The translations under genes and the position numbers were made by a program. DNA of 38,213 nt from Dehalococcoidia bacterium UBA2588 (GTDB lineage Bacteria; Chloroflexota; Dehalococcoidia; Lucifugimonadales; UBA3495): assembly GCA_002339805.1 (NCBI GenBank), contig DDKW01000010.1, positions 1 through 38,213 of the forward strand, in the 5' to 3' direction. The notes under the pieces were generated by a model. The model did not search any database, was not told the DNA's origin, and saw only the letters and a list, made by a program, of their open reading frames with translations. Of this stretch, positions 1,245 through 27,902 are shown piece by piece (positions within the stretch are counted from its first letter, which is position 1; every line of letters begins with the position of its first letter).

Positions 1245-1940
1245 TTACTCGGAATTTAGTTCTTGAAGGGCTAATGAAGCAACTTTAGCTTCTGCTTCAG
1301 ACTTTGATTTTCCTGTTGCTGAAGCGATTATGCGAGAATTGATTTCTACGGCTATCTCGAAAACAGGTTCGTGATCAGGTCCGGATTGTGAGATGAGTTT
1401 GTATTTAGGTAGTTGCTGATAAACTTTTTGCGTAAATTCCTGCAAGTCAGATTTTGGATCGTTACTGTAAAGTTTTTCTAATGAGATGCTTTCAAGTCTA
1501 GATTCAAATGCCTGCAGTATGAATTTTCTGGTCGTGTCAAACCCTTGATCGAGATATATAGCAGCTGTAATTGATTCAAAAATTGCTGCTACTACAGATC
1601 GTTTCTTTGTGCTATTACTTAACCCTTCCCCTTTCCCAGTTATAATATATTTTTCTATTCCTAATTCTCGAGCAACTTTGAAAAGCGATTCCCCTGATAC
1701 TAAATATGATCTCATTTTGGTTAAATCGCCTTCTAAGGTTTCAGGGAACTTGTTAAATAATTGTTCAGCTATTATTTGTCCCAGTATAGAATCTCCCAAA
1801 AACTCTAGTCGTTCATATGATTGAAGGTCAGGATTTGGTTGTTCATTTAGGAAAGACTTATGTGTTACTGCTTGTTCCAGCAAGGTTGCGTCAGTAAATT
1901 TGATATTTAAGGAGTTTTGCAGTTTGTGTAAATCTGTCAA
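1245..1940 (-). CDS. rnc: Ribonuclease III
   Basis: RNase III cleaves double-stranded RNA in rRNA and mRNA processing. The 231-residue protein has the signature ERLEFLGDS (43-51) in the RNase III domain and a C-terminal double-stranded RNA-binding domain (about 160-229) ending SEAEAKVASLALQEL. The frame opens with TTG at 1938-1940. No better ATG fits the normal N-terminus (LQNSLNIKF, LLEQAVTHKS), so TTG is taken as the start, although its ribosome site is weak. One oddity is in the second metal-binding motif. Where most relatives read A-D-x-x-E-A (D114 and E117 of the E. coli enzyme), this protein reads VAAIFES. The Glu is kept but the Asp is Ala. The neighbours are the DsbA-like gene 17 bp upstream and ftsY downstream. 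Confidence 0.95.
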   Translation of the reverse strand: MTDLHKLQNSLNIKFTDATLLEQAVTHKSFLNEQPNPDLQSYERLEFLGDSILGQIIAEQLFNKFPETLEGDLTKMRSYLVSGESLFKVARELGIEKYIITGKGEGLSNSTKKRSVVAAIFESITAAIYLDQGFDTTRKFILQAFESRLESISLEKLYSNDPKSDLQEFTQKVYQQLPKYKLISQSGPDHEPVFEIAVEINSRIIASATGKSKSEAEAKVASLALQELNSE

Positions 1941-1957: not shown

Positions 1958-2596
1958 CTATACCACACCTAGTGGCCAAGGTGGTTGAGGTCTTTTCATT
2001 TCACCAACGTAATTAAAAGTGCCCATCACTTCCATAAGAGAAGTAAACATTGAGGCACTTTCCTCCTCCGGAGGAATGAACATCTTTAGGAACGTGGATT
2101 GTCCAGATTCAAAATGAAAAGTGGGGACACCGAACGCACCTAGTTCTTCCGAAGCAAAGATGTGACTTTCTCCAATTTCTTGTATGGAATTTATGTCAGG
2201 TAGATCTTTTTTAAACTGCTCCATGTCAGCACCTGACTCTATCGCTGCAGATTCAATTACATCTATGTCGGTAAGGTCTAGTTTTTGTTCATGCCTCTTT
2301 TTTAAGAGGATCATCAAAAAACCTTCAAACAGGTCTGCGCCTTGTTTTTTAACAGCTAGCCCTGCTTGATGGGCTAGTAATGTATTGTCCCGGCCTTGTA
2401 GAACATCGGGGTGTTCCCAATATTTGAAATCATCTGGATTGTTTGCTTGAGCTAATGAAAAAGGCTTCCAGTTGATATTTATATTCCCATCTAAATTTTT
2501 GCGTACTTGCGTTAGCCATACAGCTACGTTGTATACAAATGGTCAACGAAAATCAAAATAAATGGAGAAGTTATAATCCTTTGAGCTTGTAGTCAT
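1958..2596 (-). CDS. DsbA/FrnE-like thioredoxin-fold protein, probable selenoprotein (in-frame TGA = Sec18)
   Basis: The frame begins at an ATG (2594-2596) preceded by a strong Shine-Dalgarno, GGAGGGG (2600-2606). It runs 212 codons with a single in-frame TGA at codon 18 (2543-2545), then stops at 1958. Residues 13-22 read YFDFR-TGA-PFVY. DsbA-like thioredoxin-fold proteins have the nucleophilic Cys here (FDF-x-C-P-x-x). The resolving Cys is absent (Val21), as in one-Cys members. The part after the TGA is well kept: NWKPFSLAQANNP (42-54), the cis-proline motif GVPTF (Pro158), and a C-terminal GEMKRPQPPWP. The hairpin listed separately follows the TGA. TGA is a normal stop in neighbours (nuoD, nuoJ, nuoM, the gene at 24842, gap), so a changed genetic code is unlikely. 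I infer a selenocysteine-dependent thiol-redox protein. Alternatives are a recent nonsense mutation or a Cys-codon sequencing error. The substrate is unknown. An automatic call would keep only 1958-2317. Confidence 0.8.
2498..2539 (-). promoter_or_regulatory. SECIS-like RNA hairpin just downstream of the in-frame TGA
   Basis: In the mRNA, numbering from the base after UGA, bases 4-45 fold as follows. UUUGU (4-8) pairs with GCAAA (41-45), with one U-G wobble. After an A/C mismatch, UAC (10-12) pairs with GUA (37-39). After an AA/CAA internal loop, CG (15-16) pairs with CG (32-33). After a bulged A (31), UAGC (17-20) pairs with GCUA (27-30). The apical loop is UGUAUG, with G at its second position, 22 nt from the UGA. 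Spacing, stem and loop G agree with the general bacterial SECIS description (a stem-loop right after UGA with a G among the first loop bases). The pairing was done by eye and no energy was computed. Confidence 0.6.
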
Positions 2597-2628
2597 GTTC
2601 CCCTCCGTATGAATAGTCTGCGAATATG

Positions 2629-16345: not shown

Positions 16346-17464
16346 ATGATGCAAGATCAACAAGATAACCAGACCATTGACATGATGTTAAACATGGGGC
16401 CACAACATCCTTCCACTCATGGTGTATTCCGTATGGAGTTAAGGATTGATGGAGAGAAAATTATTGATGTTAAGCCTCATATCGGCTACCTGCATAGGGG
16501 ATCGGAAAAACTAAGTGAAGGTGAACAATACCACCAGATAATTACTTTGTTTGATCGCATGGATTACCTCGCTAATTTCAACAATGAACTTGTTTATTGT
16601 ATGGCTGTGGAAAGACTCTTAGATATGGAGCCTTCTAAACGTACTGAATATATTAGAGTCATATTGTGTGAACTGAATCGGATAGCAAGCCATTTACTAT
16701 ATGTGGGTACAATCGGATTGGACGCTGGAGCTATGACTCCTGCTTTGTTCTCATTTATTGGTCGAGATCGAATCCAAACTTTGTTTGAAAGTATATCTGG
16801 GGCTCGAATGATGCACAATTATTTTAAAATAGGTGGTCTGAAACAAGAAGTGCCAGATGATTTTGTAAGAATGGTCAAAGATATTATGCCGGTTATCAGA
16901 CGGGATATAGATCAAACAGAAAAACTGTTAACTTTTAACGAAATATTCTTAAGTAGGACTAAGGACATTGGGGTGATTACAGCTGAACAAGCTATAGATT
17001 ATGGCTTAACTGGACCTTGCTTGAGAGGTTCAGGAATTAATTATGACGTACGGAAATCTGAACCGTATTCGGTTTATCAAGACTTTGATTTTGATGTGCC
17101 AGTAGGATTAGATGGTGATTGCTGGGACAGGCATTGGGTAAGAGTCAAAGAAATGCATGAATCTTTAAGAATCATAGAGCAAGCTATAGACAAACTCCCC
17201 GATGGAGACGTGGCGTCTCCATTAGGCAGGCGGCTTATAAGGCCGTCGGAAGGAGAAGTTTACGTTAAAGCAGAAAATCCTCGTGGAGAAATTGGGGTCT
17301 ATTTGGTGAGTGATGGCACTGATAAGCCGTATAGACTGAAAGTTAGGCCACCTTCATTTTGTAATCTGTCAGCTATTCAACTATTGCTTCAAAATTCGTG
17401 GGTCGCAGATTCTGTGGTAATACTTGGCTCTCTGGATATAGTGCTCGGTGAGGTAGACAGATGA
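16346..17464 (+). CDS. nuoD: Complex I subunit D (49 kDa)
   Basis: Peripheral-arm subunit, related to the large subunit of NiFe hydrogenase, that forms the quinone pocket with NuoB. It has 372 residues. MGPQHPSTHGVFR and HIGYLHRGSEKL near the N-terminus include the conserved His of the quinone site. Later motifs are GLTGPCLRGSG and PRGEIGVYLVSDG, and the C-terminus GSLDIVLGEVDR is typical. The hydrogenase Ni-binding Cys are absent, as expected. It overlaps nuoH by 4 bp (ATGA). A 9-bp hairpin lies inside at 17202-17222. Confidence 0.97.
   Translation: MMQDQQDNQTIDMMLNMGPQHPSTHGVFRMELRIDGEKIIDVKPHIGYLHRGSEKLSEGEQYHQIITLFDRMDYLANFNNELVYCMAVERLLDMEPSKRTEYIRVILCELNRIASHLLYVGTIGLDAGAMTPALFSFIGRDRIQTLFESISGARMMHNYFKIGGLKQEVPDDFVRMVKDIMPVIRRDIDQTEKLLTFNEIFLSRTKDIGVITAEQAIDYGLTGPCLRGSGINYDVRKSEPYSVYQDFDFDVPVGLDGDCWDRHWVRVKEMHESLRIIEQAIDKLPDGDVASPLGRRLIRPSEGEVYVKAENPRGEIGVYLVSDGTDKPYRLKVRPPSFCNLSAIQLLLQNSWVADSVVILGSLDIVLGEVDR
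17202..17222. repeat. 9-bp inverted repeat inside nuoD
   Basis: ATGGAGACG-TGG-CGTCTCCAT is a perfect hairpin with a 3-nt loop within codons for PDGDVASPL. Probably incidental. Confidence 0.5.
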
Positions 17465-18583: not shown

Positions 18584-19060
18584 ATGTTAAGTACTGTAAA
18601 AGGAATGATTCAAACGTTGTCGTCTACTTGGCGAGGATTGCGGAAGCCTGTTACTAAACTCTACCCTGAAAATCCAACGGTATTACAAAATAGATTCATG
18701 GGCTTCCCTGGATTAACATGGGATAAGGATATTGATGAACCTTTCTGTACTGGATGTATGGTATGCATTAGGAATTGTCCTACTCAGTGCATGACTGCGA
18801 CAATGAAAGATAATCCGAAATTCGCTGATGAGAGCAGTAAACGCCGCAAAATTGTGGATGAATTTGAGATTAATTTAAACCGGTGTATTTTGTGCGGTAT
18901 ATGTGTTGATGTTTGTAATTTTGATGCGATTGTTATGACCCACGAACATGAGGAAAGTGGTTCGTACAGAGATGGCAGTAGAATGAAATTGGATGGATTA
19001 CTGGAGATTGGGGGTAAATACCAGACACAGTCTGGCTGGAAACCCGCTCCTAAGGATTAA
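18584..19060 (+). CDS. nuoI: Complex I subunit I (two 4Fe-4S clusters N6a/N6b)
   Basis: Ferredoxin-like subunit of 158 residues that carries electrons to cluster N2. Two binding motifs are seen: C55-x2-C58-x2-C61-x3-C65-P, and C101-x2-C104-x2-C107-x3-C111. The second motif is followed by Asn rather than the usual Pro, and all eight ligands are present. With no NuoEFG in the operon, electrons from a ferredoxin-, F420- or other donor module would enter here. That is inference. It starts one base after the nuoH stop. Confidence 0.95.
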   Translation: MLSTVKGMIQTLSSTWRGLRKPVTKLYPENPTVLQNRFMGFPGLTWDKDIDEPFCTGCMVCIRNCPTQCMTATMKDNPKFADESSKRRKIVDEFEINLNRCILCGICVDVCNFDAIVMTHEHEESGSYRDGSRMKLDGLLEIGGKYQTQSGWKPAPKD

Positions 19061-19070
19061 TGGATTTTAT

Positions 19071-19568
19071 ATGCATTTAATTTTATTCAGTATTATCTCA
19101 ACTGTGCTTCTTGTATGCGCAGTTGGTGTTGTAATATCTCGTAATATAGTGCATTCTGCTCTGTTTCTTTTATTCGCATTGATTAGTGTAGCTGGAATTT
19201 ACTTAGTGTTGTTGACTGAATTTTTAGCAATCGTGCAATTACTAATTTATGGTGGCGCGATTGTGATTGTAATACTATTTGCATTAATGCTTACGCGTAA
19301 TGAAGAATACCCTAGAATCCAAAACAATAAACTTTGGCCCATTGCGGGAGTGCTAGCTGTTTTGGTATGTATCACAATGTCAGTGAGTTATTTTCAATCA
19401 GGTGCAATCCAAAATGTACCTAATACTATTGCTCCTGCTGGAGTCAAAAGCTTAGGAAGTTCGTTGTTTACTACCTGGGCCATACCATTTGAACTAGCAT
19501 CTTTAGTGTTGCTTGTAGCCTTGATCGGAGCGATTGTGATTGCTAGGTCCGATAAGGATGGAAACTGA
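19071..19568 (+). CDS. nuoJ: Complex I subunit J
   Basis: Membrane subunit of 165 residues with five transmembrane helices. NIVHSALFLLFALISVAGIYLVLLTEFLAIVQLLIYGGAIVIVILF (about 28-75) is the family core, with the pi-bulge helix Tyr and Gly (IYGGA). The open frame reaches further upstream inside nuoI, but the ATG at 19071 begins the normal hydrophobic N-terminus. AAGGA at 19052-19056 is rather distant. It abuts nuoK. Confidence 0.95.
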   Translation: MHLILFSIISTVLLVCAVGVVISRNIVHSALFLLFALISVAGIYLVLLTEFLAIVQLLIYGGAIVIVILFALMLTRNEEYPRIQNNKLWPIAGVLAVLVCITMSVSYFQSGAIQNVPNTIAPAGVKSLGSSLFTTWAIPFELASLVLLVALIGAIVIARSDKDGN

Positions 19569-19924: not shown

Positions 19925-21841
19925 ATGCAATATTTCTGGTTAATCCCTGTAATCAGCTTTATAGCATTTATTATTACAAGTTTGATTGGGAATAAAATTC
20001 TCAAGCAAGCTTGGATATTCCCTATGCTAGCAATCGTGTTGGGGTTGGGCATTTATTGTTTCGGTCTTACAGAGTATTTGCAGTCTAGATTTGATTTGGA
20101 GCATTGTTTTAGAAGTTCTGTAACTGGAATGGTTGGTTGCAATTATAGTGTTGAATGGTTTACTGCAGGAGTTCGTGGTGCTGACTCAGTTAATTCATTT
20201 CTTGGTTTTACTGTAGATCCTCTAAGTTTATCTGTGGCCGGATTAGCGATATTTGTCGCTTTGATGGTTCAGATATACTCAATTGGATATATGAAGGATG
20301 ACCCCCGGTTTGCTTGGTATTATTCTGTGCAAGCTTTATTTATTTCATCCATGATTCTTTTAGCATTGTCCGATAATTTCTTACTTTTGTACGTTGCTTG
20401 GGAATTAGTAGGACTATGTTCGTATTTACTGATAGGATTTTGGTACGAAAAACCTGAGGCAAAAGAGGCAGCCAAGAAAGCATTTACAGTTACCCGGTTA
20501 GGAGATGTGGGTCTTTTAATTGGTATTCTGTTGATATGGATAGAAGTTGGTTCTTTCAATATGAGTGACTTATTTACTCAAGTTGGATCAGGGGAAATAG
20601 CTTCTTGGACAATATTTTCCATCAGTGGCCTGCTGTTTCTTGGTGCTATGGGTAAATCCGCTCAATTTCCTTTTCATGTTTGGTTGCCGGATGCAATGGA
20701 AGGACCAACTCCTGTGAGTGCGCTGATACACGCTGCTACTATGGTTGCTGCTGGAGTGTACTTGGTCGCTAGGGCGTACCCTCTCTTCGTTCAATCAGAA
20801 GCCATGATGATTATTGTTTCATGTGTTGGTTTGATCACTGCTATAGGGGCTGCCTTGATTTGCTGTGTGTCAGTAGACTTGAAAAGAGCATTGGCGTATT
20901 CCACAATCAGTCATTTGGGATTGATGATGCTAAGCTTAGGAGCATTCGGGTATACGGCTGCAATACTACATTTATTGGCTCACGGATTCAGCAAAGCATT
21001 GTTGTTCTTGGGTTCAGGAAACATAATGCACTCTATAGATGATTTGAACATTAATAGAATGGGCGGGCTGAAGTCTGTATTGCCTGCTACGACCATTCTA
21101 TTCTGTATTGGGGCTCTTTCATTAGCAGGTATTCCGTTACTGTCAGGGTTTTGGAGCAAAGATGAAGTTATCGTTTCTATCGTCCATAACAGGAACATTG
21201 TATTCGCGATTTCATCCATGGTTTTGGTGTTTTTGAGTGGGTTTTATATGATCAGGTTAATCATAGTACCATTCTTTGGTTCTCCCAATAGAGATTATAG
21301 CCATGCTCATAAACTTCCATTTGTGATGCTTGCACCTATGGGGGTTTTAGCAGTAGTGGTGGTGTTGTTTGGATGGATTGCTCTCTATATGCCAGGCGCG
21401 CCTGCTAGTTTTGGAACTTTCCTGTTTTATTCTCATCCTAAGAATTTTCATTTAGAGCCCGATATCGCGATCATAACTTTAGTCATTACGTTGTTATCGT
21501 TTGGATTCGGATATTTGATTTACGTGAAAAGGTTTTCTATTTTTCAAAATATGAGAATCAAGGCAAGACTGATTATTGAAATTGTAGAAAACAAATACTA
21601 TATAGATGAACTGTATCAAATATTAGTAGATAAGCTTGTTTTGCCCGCAGCTGGATTGGTAGCCTTATTCGATCGGATTCTAGTTAATGATGTTGGAATT
21701 AATGGTCCTGGATACGTTACTAGAACTGTCGGGTCAATAATCAGACACCACATAACCGGCAGAATTTATGTATATTTGGCACTTATGACTACTGGAATGA
21801 TAGTGTTAGGAATCATTTGGTTGGGGATAGTGATTCTCTAA
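19925..21841 (+). CDS. nuoL: Complex I subunit L (antiporter-like)
   Basis: Largest Mrp-type antiporter-like subunit of complex I, 638 residues. Motifs include FTVDPLSLSVAGLA, YVAWELVGLCSYLLIGFW, KSAQFPFHVWLPDAMEGPTPVSALIHAATMVAAGVYL and HLLAHGFSKALLFLGSG, with the Lys and Glu residues of the proton channel present. The C-terminal part (about 540-638) is the long amphipathic arm and its anchor. The ATG at 19925 has AGGAG about 17 nt upstream, further than usual. A 10-codon frame (19911-19943) begins nearer to that site but is not claimed as a gene. The last base of the stop is the first base of the nuoM ATG. Confidence 0.96.
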   Translation: MQYFWLIPVISFIAFIITSLIGNKILKQAWIFPMLAIVLGLGIYCFGLTEYLQSRFDLEHCFRSSVTGMVGCNYSVEWFTAGVRGADSVNSFLGFTVDPLSLSVAGLAIFVALMVQIYSIGYMKDDPRFAWYYSVQALFISSMILLALSDNFLLLYVAWELVGLCSYLLIGFWYEKPEAKEAAKKAFTVTRLGDVGLLIGILLIWIEVGSFNMSDLFTQVGSGEIASWTIFSISGLLFLGAMGKSAQFPFHVWLPDAMEGPTPVSALIHAATMVAAGVYLVARAYPLFVQSEAMMIIVSCVGLITAIGAALICCVSVDLKRALAYSTISHLGLMMLSLGAFGYTAAILHLLAHGFSKALLFLGSGNIMHSIDDLNINRMGGLKSVLPATTILFCIGALSLAGIPLLSGFWSKDEVIVSIVHNRNIVFAISSMVLVFLSGFYMIRLIIVPFFGSPNRDYSHAHKLPFVMLAPMGVLAVVVVLFGWIALYMPGAPASFGTFLFYSHPKNFHLEPDIAIITLVITLLSFGFGYLIYVKRFSIFQNMRIKARLIIEIVENKYYIDELYQILVDKLVLPAAGLVALFDRILVNDVGINGPGYVTRTVGSIIRHHITGRIYVYLALMTTGMIVLGIIWLGIVIL

Positions 21842-23355
21842 TGAACGAATTATATAACATAATGGCTTTCGTTCTTATAGCCCTGCCTTTGATGGCAGCT
21901 TTAGTATTCATGGTGCTACCTAATCTAACTTCTAAGAGTTATTGGCTCTTATCATCGATAATTTCTGTGATAACTTTTGGCATTTCTGTATTTCTTTTCA
22001 TGTCATATGACACGTTGACAGGAGGCACGCAATTTTCATTTACCGTTCCATGGTTAGATCAAGGTATTAATATATCCTTTGGCTTAGGGCTAACTGGGAT
22101 AAGTGCATCCATGGTTTTATTGAATGGAATAGTCCTCCTGGGAGCTTGCCTAATATCAGGTGATATTGAAAAAAGAGGACGGGACTTTTATGTGTTACTA
22201 CTGACGCTTGGGGGAGGAGTATTTGGTGTATTCTTATCTTCCGATTTATTTTTCTTTTTCCTCTTCTATGAATTAGCAGTTTTACCTATGTATTTACTGA
22301 TTGCGGTTTGGGGAAGCTCTACGGATTTTGGATCTTTTACCAGAAGCAAAGAATATGGTGCTATGAAACTCATGATGGTATTAGTTGCTGCTAGTGTTTT
22401 AATTTGGGTGGGGATCATAGCAATTTTCGTTGAGACATATTTGCACGGTACTCCGACTTTTGCATTTGAAGAATTGAGGAGATTGTCTGAAAATGGTCTA
22501 TTCAGTGTAGAGTTCCAGAACTGGGTATTCTTATGCTTCATGATTGGTTTTGGTGTATTGTCAGGTTTATGGCCTTTTCATACCTGGTCTCCAGATGGCC
22601 ATGTTGCAGCGCCAACAGGTGTCAGCATGCTGCATGCAGGCGTATTGATGAAGCTAGGTGCGTTTGGAATTATTCAAATTGGTATAGTGATATTGCCATT
22701 AGGTGCTCAAACCTGGATGCCATTATTGATGGTTCTTGGAATAGTTAATGTCATTTATGGAGCAGTATCTGCAATGTCTCAAACAGACTTGAAATATATC
22801 ATCGGATATTCTAGCGTAAGTCATATGGGGTATGTATTAATTGGCGCTGCGACTCTTAATTCAATTGGTATTTCCGGCGCAGTTCTCCAGATGTTCTCTC
22901 ATGGTATTATGACGGCCCTCATGTTCGTATTGGTAGGAGCTATTTATCATAGGGCCCATACCAGAGACATCTATGTCTTAAACGGTCTTATCAAGACTAT
23001 GCCTCATATCTGCGTATTGTTTATAATAGCCGGATTTGCTTCACTCGGATTACCTGGATTAAGTGGATTCATAGCTGAATTTCTAATCTTCCTGGGTGTG
23101 ATTAAAATTTCGTTCTGGATTGCAGCACTAGCCGTATTAGGAGCAGCTCTGACAGCTGTGTACATATTGAGATTAATAGCTCGAACGATTGTTGGGCCTG
23201 TGGATAGCAGCTTATCTGATCTTCCTGATGCAAATATCTATGAAAAAATAGTTTCCGTAGCGCTAGCTTCAGTGCTAGTCGCAGTGGGTGTATGGCCGGC
23301 CCTATTATTAGATTCTATTAATGTAGGCGTGGCCACTATAATGAGTGCATTATGA
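21841..23355 (+). CDS. nuoM: Complex I subunit M (antiporter-like)
   Basis: Second antiporter-like membrane subunit, 504 residues from the ATG at 21841, which shares its first base with the nuoL TAA. The upstream extension of the frame lies inside nuoL. Family motifs are LFYELAVLPMYLLIAVWG (with the channel Glu), GLWPFHTWSPDGHVAAPTGVSMLHAGVLMKLGAFG and HGIMTALMFVLVGAIYHR. It overlaps nuoN by 4 bp. Confidence 0.96.
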   Translation: MNELYNIMAFVLIALPLMAALVFMVLPNLTSKSYWLLSSIISVITFGISVFLFMSYDTLTGGTQFSFTVPWLDQGINISFGLGLTGISASMVLLNGIVLLGACLISGDIEKRGRDFYVLLLTLGGGVFGVFLSSDLFFFFLFYELAVLPMYLLIAVWGSSTDFGSFTRSKEYGAMKLMMVLVAASVLIWVGIIAIFVETYLHGTPTFAFEELRRLSENGLFSVEFQNWVFLCFMIGFGVLSGLWPFHTWSPDGHVAAPTGVSMLHAGVLMKLGAFGIIQIGIVILPLGAQTWMPLLMVLGIVNVIYGAVSAMSQTDLKYIIGYSSVSHMGYVLIGAATLNSIGISGAVLQMFSHGIMTALMFVLVGAIYHRAHTRDIYVLNGLIKTMPHICVLFIIAGFASLGLPGLSGFIAEFLIFLGVIKISFWIAALAVLGAALTAVYILRLIARTIVGPVDSSLSDLPDANIYEKIVSVALASVLVAVGVWPALLLDSINVGVATIMSAL

Positions 23356-24841: not shown

Positions 24842-25366
24842 ATGATTGTATCCATAATAGGCAGCAGTACTGCTTTACCACATCATATTGTTATGGCGAG
24901 AGAACTAGGCATTGAACTAGCGAAAAATATCAATGTGGATTATGTAGTTTGCGGAGGTATGGGTGGTATTATGGAAGCGATCTGTGAGGGAGTCCAGATT
25001 GGAATAAGAGAAGGGTTTGCATGCCAAACTATTGGTATATTACCAGGCAATGATAAGTCCGCCGGAAACCAATACATTGATATCTCAATCGTTACAGGTA
25101 TGGGATTTGCTAGGAATATAGTCGTAGCACTTACTGGAGATGTAGTGATTGCTGTAGGAGGGGCGTATGGAACTTTGTCAGAATTAGGGCATGCATTGTC
25201 CGAAGGGCGCCCGACTATTTCTTTGGATTCTTGGGATTTAACAACTACAGGCGAAGGCGAAGTTGTTTCTGAAAAATCCATGTTTACACGAGTTAGTAGC
25301 GTTGCAGATACTATCACTGCATTAAATGATGTAGTCAATAAATTGAATCATAAGGATGACATATGA
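24842..25366 (+). CDS. LOG-like Rossmann-fold protein, TIGR00725 type
   Basis: Protein of 174 residues with the lysine-decarboxylase-like/LOG Rossmann fold. Motifs are VVCGGMGGIMEAICEG (about 35-50), ILPGNDKSAGNQYIDISIVTGMGFARN and GGAYGTLSELGHAL (106-119), the last being the GGxGTxxE phosphate-binding site. True LOG enzymes release cytokinin-like bases from nucleotides. The bacterial TIGR00725 branch has no firm role, though nucleotide binding is expected. The start is an ATG with GAGGA upstream. It overlaps enolase by 4 bp, so the two are coupled. Confidence 0.85.
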   Translation: MIVSIIGSSTALPHHIVMARELGIELAKNINVDYVVCGGMGGIMEAICEGVQIGIREGFACQTIGILPGNDKSAGNQYIDISIVTGMGFARNIVVALTGDVVIAVGGAYGTLSELGHALSEGRPTISLDSWDLTTTGEGEVVSEKSMFTRVSSVADTITALNDVVNKLNHKDDI

Positions 25367-26832: not shown

Positions 26833-26885
26833 ATTTTGGTAAAATTTTGGTGATTAGATAATGAATAGAATTGGAGGCAGCGATA

Positions 26886-27902
26886 GTGACTACTAAGATA
26901 GGGATTAACGGGTTTGGCAGAATCGGTAGATTAGTAACTAGGGCATGGTTGGAAGATTATAAAGATCTAGATGTGGAAATTTGTGCCGTTAATGGTTTAA
27001 GTGATGTCGCTACTTATGCTCACCTTTTCAAACACGATACCACCTATGGTAATTACTCCGGGGATGTCCAAACTGCCGGTAATGATTTGATCATTGATGG
27101 TCACAGTGTGAGAGTCTTTAGTGAACGTGAACCAGCAAACATACCCTGGTCTGAATTAGGAATAGACATCGTTATTGAGTCCACCGGCAAATTTACTGAT
27201 TCTTCAAAAGCTGTCGCTCATATAGAAAGTGGAGCACAAAAAGTGTTGGTATCAGCCCCTGCGAAAGGTGCGGATGCGACAATAGTATTGGGCATTAATG
27301 AAAATATTTATGATAGTAAATCTCACCAGATAGTGTCTAACGCTTCTTGCACTACGAATTGTTTTGCACCAATGGTTAAAGTGTTGCAGGATGCTTTTGG
27401 AATCGAGCACGGACTAATGTCAACAATACATTCATTTACTAATGATCAGTCGGTATTAGATAGAGGACATAAGGATTTACGTAGAGCACGGACAGCATCC
27501 ATGAATATTATACCTACTACTACTGGCGCTGCGAGATCGGTGGGTGTTGTGATCCCCGAATTGGAAGGAAAGCTACATGGGATAGCCTACAGGGTTCCCA
27601 CAAATACATGCTCAGCTACTGATTTTACTGCTAACTTGTCAGTCTCAGTCACTGTGGAAGAGGTAAATGAGGCTTTCAAAAAAGCTTCAGAAACAAACTT
27701 AAAAGGTATATTGGAATATAGTGAGGAACCATTGGTGAGTTCAGACTTTAGAGGGAATTCTCACAGTTGCATATTTGATTCTTTGTCTACCATTGTGATG
27801 CAAGATAATATGGTGAAAATACTAGGATGGTATGACAATGAATGGGGTTACTCTTGTAGAACTATTGAGTTGTGCTCATTGATGGGTAAATCTTTGGACT
27901 GA
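26886..27902 (+). CDS. gap: Glyceraldehyde-3-phosphate dehydrogenase
   Basis: Phosphorylating GAPDH of glycolysis/gluconeogenesis, 338 residues. The start is a GTG at 26886 with GGAGG eight bases upstream. An upstream TTG (26871) is in frame but unsupported. The Rossmann motif is INGFGRIGR (7-15), the catalytic Cys155 lies in NASCTTNC, and His182 in TIHSFTND. The coenzyme-specific Asp after the second strand (VNDL in NAD enzymes) is Gly37 here (AVNGLSD), and the LP/xP pair before HKDLRRAR is Arg193-Gly194. Both changes suggest NADP or dual use, by analogy with B. stearothermophilus GAPDH mutants. It lies in a run with enolase and precedes the giant glycosyltransferase fusion by 3 bp. Confidence 0.95.
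   Translation: MTTKIGINGFGRIGRLVTRAWLEDYKDLDVEICAVNGLSDVATYAHLFKHDTTYGNYSGDVQTAGNDLIIDGHSVRVFSEREPANIPWSELGIDIVIESTGKFTDSSKAVAHIESGAQKVLVSAPAKGADATIVLGINENIYDSKSHQIVSNASCTTNCFAPMVKVLQDAFGIEHGLMSTIHSFTNDQSVLDRGHKDLRRARTASMNIIPTTTGAARSVGVVIPELEGKLHGIAYRVPTNTCSATDFTANLSVSVTVEEVNEAFKKASETNLKGILEYSEEPLVSSDFRGNSHSCIFDSLSTIVMQDNMVKILGWYDNEWGYSCRTIELCSLMGKSLD

Follow-up and report, generated by a model that had tools for sequence, protein, structure and literature searches.

An interrupted DsbA-like gene in a Dehalococcoidia contig

The stretch of DNA analysed here, which we call the window, comprises 38,213 nucleotides (nt) of contig DDKW01000010.1 from Dehalococcoidia bacterium UBA2588. Near one end lies a gene for a DsbA-like protein of 212 amino acids (aa) whose frame is interrupted once, by a TGA at codon 18 that we read as selenocysteine (Sec). 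A first-pass annotation, made from the sequence letters, had put the gene at 1958..2596 and left its strand unstated; the coordinates are correct and the strand is minus, as the plus strand of this interval holds many stops and the usable frame runs from 2596 to 1958. The gene and its signals are as follows.

1958..2596, minus strand: gene for a DsbA-like protein with a single predicted Sec at residue 18, 212 aa, TAG stop; frame open but for one TGA; match to Pfam PF01323 (DSBA) at 2.3e-16; AlphaFold2 model with a mean predicted local distance difference test score (pLDDT) of 94
2543..2545, minus strand: UGA codon 18, its Sec reading inferred from relatives (TGA 71, Cys 11 in 82 distinct loci) and from the genome's Sec machinery
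2600..2606, minus strand: Shine-Dalgarno-like GGAGGGG, read directly from the sequence
2510..2528, minus strand: hairpin resembling a bacterial selenocysteine insertion sequence (bSECIS), with a stem of 7 pairs, a single bulged A and GUAU as its apical loop; indicated by its fold, the same position in relatives and a loop start 21 nt past the UGA

The 212-codon frame with its lone TGA at codon 18 (2545-2543, in the context FDFR-U-PFVY), the GGAGGGG, the GVPTF motif and the C-terminal tail RPQPPWP of the read-through product, all of which had been described before, were all found on this strand, and the closing stop is TAG. TGA is also a plain stop elsewhere in the window, as had been claimed: it ends 10 of the 25 open reading frames (ORFs) that were checked from 45 listed, among them 16346-17464, 18993-19568, 21817-23355, 24842-25366 and 26871-27902.

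The codon at the site is TGA or Cys in relatives

To see how codon 18 behaves in other genomes, we read the aligned codon locus by locus. The protein was found in 47 of 59 genomes (our own included), with one in-frame TGA in the best match of 46 and none in that of genome G042. Reading the codon in these 47 genomes and in two named contigs gave TGA 48 times and TGT once (n = 49 loci); locus L021 is identical to L027 and was removed from every count, leaving 47 TGA and 1 TGT (n = 48), the latter being G042, the only non-TGA form among these first distinct loci. A search across the class (E 1e-20) found the protein in 36 of 294 genomes and added 34 loci, 24 with TGA and 10 with TGC. Altogether, 82 distinct homologous loci carry TGA (71) or Cys (11) at this position and no other codon. 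The expectation that the same TGA would recur in independent genomes was thus borne out in 46 of the 47 matching genomes, each verified at the codon, and relatives lacking both Cys and TGA, which would have spoken against Sec, did not occur among the 82. A search of the phylum beyond the class, at E 1e-30, gave matches in 25 of 301 genomes; the 11 loci read from it stand outside the 82 and comprise one TGA form with a clean hairpin (L124) and ten with Cys codons. Flags for in-frame stops proved unreliable (L126 and L130 were flagged as having one TGA yet carry Cys codons at the site), so only loci read at the codon itself were counted. Left out of all site counts were L023-L025 (at most 31% identity) and three weak second matches (E > 1e-4).

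Among database proteins, the Cys predicted at column 18 of homologues, found in the 11 loci above, also stands there in 13 of the 120 listed relatives (287 were found), at 51-55% identity over 93-97% of the protein. Labels among the listed relatives include SAR202, Dehalococcoidia and Tara, and a contig named 'Chloroflexi bacterium isolate SP188' matches at 83%; these names point to the lineage of the family and to its habitat. A pattern search found Trp at the site in two of the 120 (P0002 and P0004), and among 14 database proteins inspected, P0018, P0026, P0042 and P0086 (194 aa) start at VYN or MYN directly after it.

These late starts raise the question of whether the UGA is a true stop, with a shorter protein beginning right behind it; a GTG codon lies just past the site in 20 of 48 loci. 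We consider this very unlikely, as the stretch ahead of the TGA is conserved (D15 is invariant) and supplies strand 1 of the fold, and the shortened product would be left with neither strand 1 nor the nucleophile. Still less credible is a changed code (code 4) in which UGA means Trp throughout the lineage. It would account for P0002 and P0004, whose W would be the output of gene calling under code 4, but TGA ends ordinary ORFs in the window, the alternative codons at the site are those for Cys and never TGG, and the genome has a tRNA-Sec with anticodon tca. The chance that the TGA is a sequencing error or the gene dead is negligible: a lone TGA in an otherwise open frame does resemble a single error, but it recurs at the same codon in those 71 loci, from separate assemblies, and eight residues (D15, P19, P158, K171, E199, K201, P203 and P205) are invariant across 36 aligned members whose identity falls to 33%. 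The TAG flagged in genome G116 was considered as a possible case of UAG-encoded Sec and ruled out, its site codon being TGC and its tRNA-Sec anticodon tca.

Selenocysteine machinery accompanies the gene

The first-pass annotation had proposed looking for selA, selB, selC and selD in the same genome, and all four are present in the assembly (1.3 Mb, 77% complete): tRNA-Sec scores 64.4 bits, above the cut-off and with anticodon tca, and selB (319 bits), selA (536 bits) and selD (281 bits) each exceed their family cut-off. The genome's selD (L019, G000:C14:2437-3687), which is split by a run of N, has an in-frame UGA of its own in SHCAGUAAK near the N-terminus, which we take to be the position where SelD often carries Sec; SelD is thus probably a second selenoprotein of this genome.

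Across the family, tRNA-Sec was detected in 55 of the 63 TGA-form genomes searched together, and in every one of the 37 with completeness of 90% or more and contamination no higher than 5%. It was also found in G000, G088 and G146, outside the 63; the survey omits three TGA-form genomes (G085, G095 and the genome of L022). Seven of the 11 Cys-form genomes were searched, with tRNA-Sec present in G042, G257, G116 and G161 and not found in G072, G108 and G133.

A hairpin follows the UGA at a fixed distance

According to a 2026 review, a bSECIS has a small loop 16-37 nt after the UGA with a G within its first two letters, and a folding energy of -7.5 kcal/mol or lower (PMC13188914). The hairpin in the window conforms in spacing and loop (GUAU, 21 nt after the UGA), and folding gives -11.7 kcal/mol over 62 nt and -5.5 kcal/mol over the 35 nt around it. 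Throughout the family the hairpin keeps its place, 14 nt past the UGA: counting the U of UGA as 0, the stem spans +17 to +35 and the loop starts at +24.

As this region also encodes protein, we controlled for coding constraint by making 500 synonymous recodings of every sequence and scoring them in the same way, the pair score being the best of four registers out of 7 pairs. Among 47 rows (46 TGA, 1 Cys; L042, a near-copy of L040, was left out here and in the Sec/Cys hairpin comparison), 44 reached 6 or more of the 7 pairs; in the recoded sets the number of such rows averaged 15.5 and never exceeded 24. The hairpin in the family exceeds what the protein sequence forces. In each of two registers, 6 of the 7 pairs showed two-sided changes, and none of 500 shuffles reached the observed covariation score; alignment A2 omits L042, L056-L058, L060 and the Cys form L069. 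Within the core family, 58 of 66 TGA forms reach 6 pairs or more, compared with one of the 8 Cys forms (Fisher 2.6e-5; L080 and a sister group, L081-L084, L105 and L106, omitted). An Rfam scan of the window gave no match above gathering scores.

Several observations weigh against reading the codon as Sec with this hairpin as its signal. Taken singly, few rows beat their recodings at p <=0.05, 9 of 47 by pair number and 21 of 47 by fold energy, and the rows are related, so that such tests are not independent; the window's own stem is unremarkable (6 of 7 counted pairs, recode p 0.31, z -0.68). The count of extra pair types is unexceptional (136 and 27 of 500 shuffles were equally high), RNAalifold retains only 3 pairs from an alignment in which two stem registers are mixed, and the registers were selected from TGA forms. 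The contrast between Sec and Cys forms is no longer significant after correction for kinship (6 independent pairs; median p 1), and 22 of 66 loops start with AU and have no G in their first two letters, making them looser than the published model. As for the machinery, tRNA-Sec was not detected in 8 of the 63 TGA-form genomes, all 8 of them less than 90% complete, and it occurs in 10 of 12 relatives of the order that do not have the gene, so that the machinery permits Sec here and is not specific to this gene.

Taking codon conservation, machinery, hairpin and fold together, we infer that Sec is inserted at codon 18, with a probability of about 95%, a figure that covers the Sec reading and nothing further. 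The conditions examined that could have overturned this proposal of the first-pass annotation did not apply. Decoding of UGA 18 would be carried out by tRNA-Sec(UCA) and SelB, directed by the SECIS hairpin just downstream within the coding sequence.

A DsbA fold with a predicted lone selenol

The PF01323 match, obtained with Cys written at residue 18, reaches 60.6 bits against a cut-off of 25.6. In the AlphaFold2 model, which finds DsbA-type matches in the PDB, strand 7-14 is followed by helix 19-34, placing residue 18 at the active-site turn. The protein holds no Cys anywhere and its active site reads UPFV, matching neither the CxxC or UxxC of classical DsbA thiol oxidoreductases nor the CP(W/F)C motif of the FrnE subfamily; 64 of 70 Sec forms have Val at +3 from Sec. 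The earlier suggestion of a Sec-only site with no resolving Cys therefore agrees with the protein itself, and of the label 'DsbA/FrnE-like' the DsbA part stands by fold and family, while FrnE is only a rough likeness: its site is CxxC, and the single-Cys protein DR2335 matches better. The model for mycothiol-dependent Rv2466c-like reductases, PF22234 (curated score 27), had no match in the window protein at E 0.001; of four relatives scanned, P0086 reached 32.8 bits and the other three stayed below 27. At E 0.001 the window protein likewise belonged to none of the NCBIfam models, and 5 of the 36 aligned members touched NF041057, a model for Rcas_1661-type (seleno)lipoproteins (best 6.8e-07).

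The product would be an enzyme of the DsbA fold and probably reside in the cytosol. Its Sec would open the first active-site helix and, by the DsbA rule, presumably face the cis-proline loop GVPT. Its selenolate would attack a disulfide or mixed disulfide to form a Se-S intermediate, which an outside thiol, probably thioredoxin or a small thiol, would then reduce. As the window protein has no Cys, resolution of the selenium intermediate must fall to an outside partner. Reduction of disulfides or mixed disulfides with such a partner is to our mind the most likely mechanism, at about even odds.

We looked for the small thiols that might serve. Glutathione synthase (TIGR01380) and BshC were each found in 0 of 24 genomes and MshC above its cut-off in 0 of 40, these three being the low-molecular-weight thiol markers covered, and not other glutathione, ergothioneine or coenzyme A-linked genes; weaker MshC matches in 39 genomes are probably cysteinyl-tRNA synthetases. 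With no sign above cut-off of the glutathione, bacillithiol or mycothiol markers that were tested, our guess at the reductant is thioredoxin or another thiol.

Two other roles for a Sec enzyme deserve mention. Its main task might be to reduce peroxide or another oxidant, with thioredoxin re-reducing it afterwards. A lone selenol with no resolving Cys in the protein fits this, as such a selenol suits peroxidase chemistry, the glutathione peroxidases being an example; on the other side, DsbA folds are not known as a class of peroxidases, and we regard this role as unlikely. The same holds for a protein resembling kappa-class glutathione S-transferases or 2-hydroxychromene-2-carboxylate (HCCA) isomerases, in which the selenol would react with an electrophile or with the adduct of a thiol.

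A sister group of DsbA-like proteins was seen alongside the family, with UPWC encoded through TGA in L083, L084, L105 and L106 and CPWC in L081 and L082. Genomes G063 and G086 each carry a member of the main family and a member of this sister group.

Sec and Cys have been exchanged repeatedly

We built a tree of 92 rows (69 Sec and 23 Cys; L021, L042, L079 and L106 omitted) with the site masked. It implies 9 changes between Sec and Cys, at least 7 of them forced by well-supported branches; some long branches join one another, which makes individual placements uncertain.

Among Sec-form genes of L022-L106 with their stop inside the contig, 2 of 69 end in TGA, as against 19 of 57 neighbouring RNase III genes (Fisher 4e-6); the figure for Cys-form genes is 5 of 10. 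The stop codon changed at least 18 times among the Sec rows of the tree, and a kinship-corrected comparison was too small to decide.

The gene stands beside rnc

The genes around the Sec gene in the window are listed below.

1245..1940, minus strand: ribonuclease III (RNase III) gene, rnc, 17 nt downstream of the Sec gene; Pfam PF14622, PF00636 and PF00035
296..1228, minus strand: gene for a GTPase of the signal recognition particle (SRP) type, probably ftsY, next after rnc; PF00448 and PF02881
2715..3947, plus strand: gene of CCA-adding/poly(A)-polymerase type, upstream and divergent; PF01743 and PF12627

Of the 71 TGA loci, 57 have an RNase III motif downstream in the same orientation, and in 53 of these 57 the most upstream possible start of rnc falls between -59 and +22 nt from the end of the Sec gene, an arrangement that suggests co-expression of the two. 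When relatives were clustered by BLAST, the CCA-adding-type gene stood upstream in 36 of 82 loci and the SRP-type GTPase gene downstream in 28 of 82. Most flanks are about 1.5 kb long, so these neighbour counts are lower bounds.

L102 and L103 have long in-frame stretches upstream, and a fusion was considered for them, crotonase being named in the review table; inspected by eye, these stretches look like a non-coding frame. In L091 and L093 a short frame, by eye of ThiS/MoaD type, leads in frame into the start of the Sec gene. A phage search gave no match.

Relation to known selenoproteins

DsbA-like selenoproteins, taken together, rank among the top 20 in a survey from 2016, with 45 proteins in 41 organisms (PMC5029168). 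The use of Sec in Chloroflexota has likewise been reported, for instance in formate dehydrogenases (PMC4959059). Two table rows come close to the present family. Table 2 of the 2008 Global Ocean Sampling (GOS) study lists a group 'DsbA 3' (pfam01323, UxxV) with 5 selenoproteins from 3 samples and 72 Cys homologues (PMC2398784). Pfam family, UxxV motif and aquatic samples are the points of likeness, and on the motif, in a comparison with the table row only, 'DsbA 3' is probably the window family. A table in the 2026 review gives a 'DsbA-like protein form 2' (PF01323, DxxUP, MDP6049977.1; PMC13188914). Compared by motif only, the DFRUP of the window fits DxxUP and both belong to PF01323; MDP6049977.1 differs in being labelled as a member of the crotonase/enoyl-CoA hydratase family.

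Other DsbA-like selenoproteins (DsbA 1 and 2; form 1), as these tables present them, have Sec at the same N-terminal active-site position of a PF01323-type protein. They are of the UxxC type and retain the resolving Cys, where the window family has Val at +3. The nearest solved relative is DR2335 of Deinococcus radiodurans (PDB 7dk9 and 7dka), a single-Cys DsbA-like protein with Cys where the window protein has Sec (PMC8945050). FrnE of Deinococcus (drFrnE) has a CxxC site of its own, unlike the window protein, in which the resolving residue is missing.

The active site of Rv2466c-type reductases is CPWC. They too have the resolving residue that is missing from the window protein.

The first-pass annotation knew of no description of this exact Chloroflexota family as a selenoprotein. 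That held to the extent that the parts of the open-licence literature searched contained no description of the gene in SAR202, Chloroflexota or Dehalococcoidia; it did not hold for the motif, as a group with the same motif, 'DsbA 3, UxxV', has stood in the GOS table since 2008. What is apparently new is the lineage, the deep conservation and the place beside rnc.

In one wider picture, nearly every member of a marine Chloroflexota lineage would use this Cys-free, single-selenol DsbA as a housekeeping protein, expressed together with RNase III, and, the tested thiol markers not being found, a new thiol system would resolve its selenium intermediate; taken as a whole, we hold this picture to be doubtful.

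With no NCBIfam match, and with database versions that put Trp at the UGA or begin after it, an annotation habit that hides the family, these proteins are easily overlooked. A selenoprotein group that we found in print only as table rows can now be given a lineage, full genes and a gene neighbourhood. More generally, Sec in a DsbA design that has no resolving Cys, together with repeated switches between Sec and Cys, makes the family a natural set in which to ask what advantage Sec confers.
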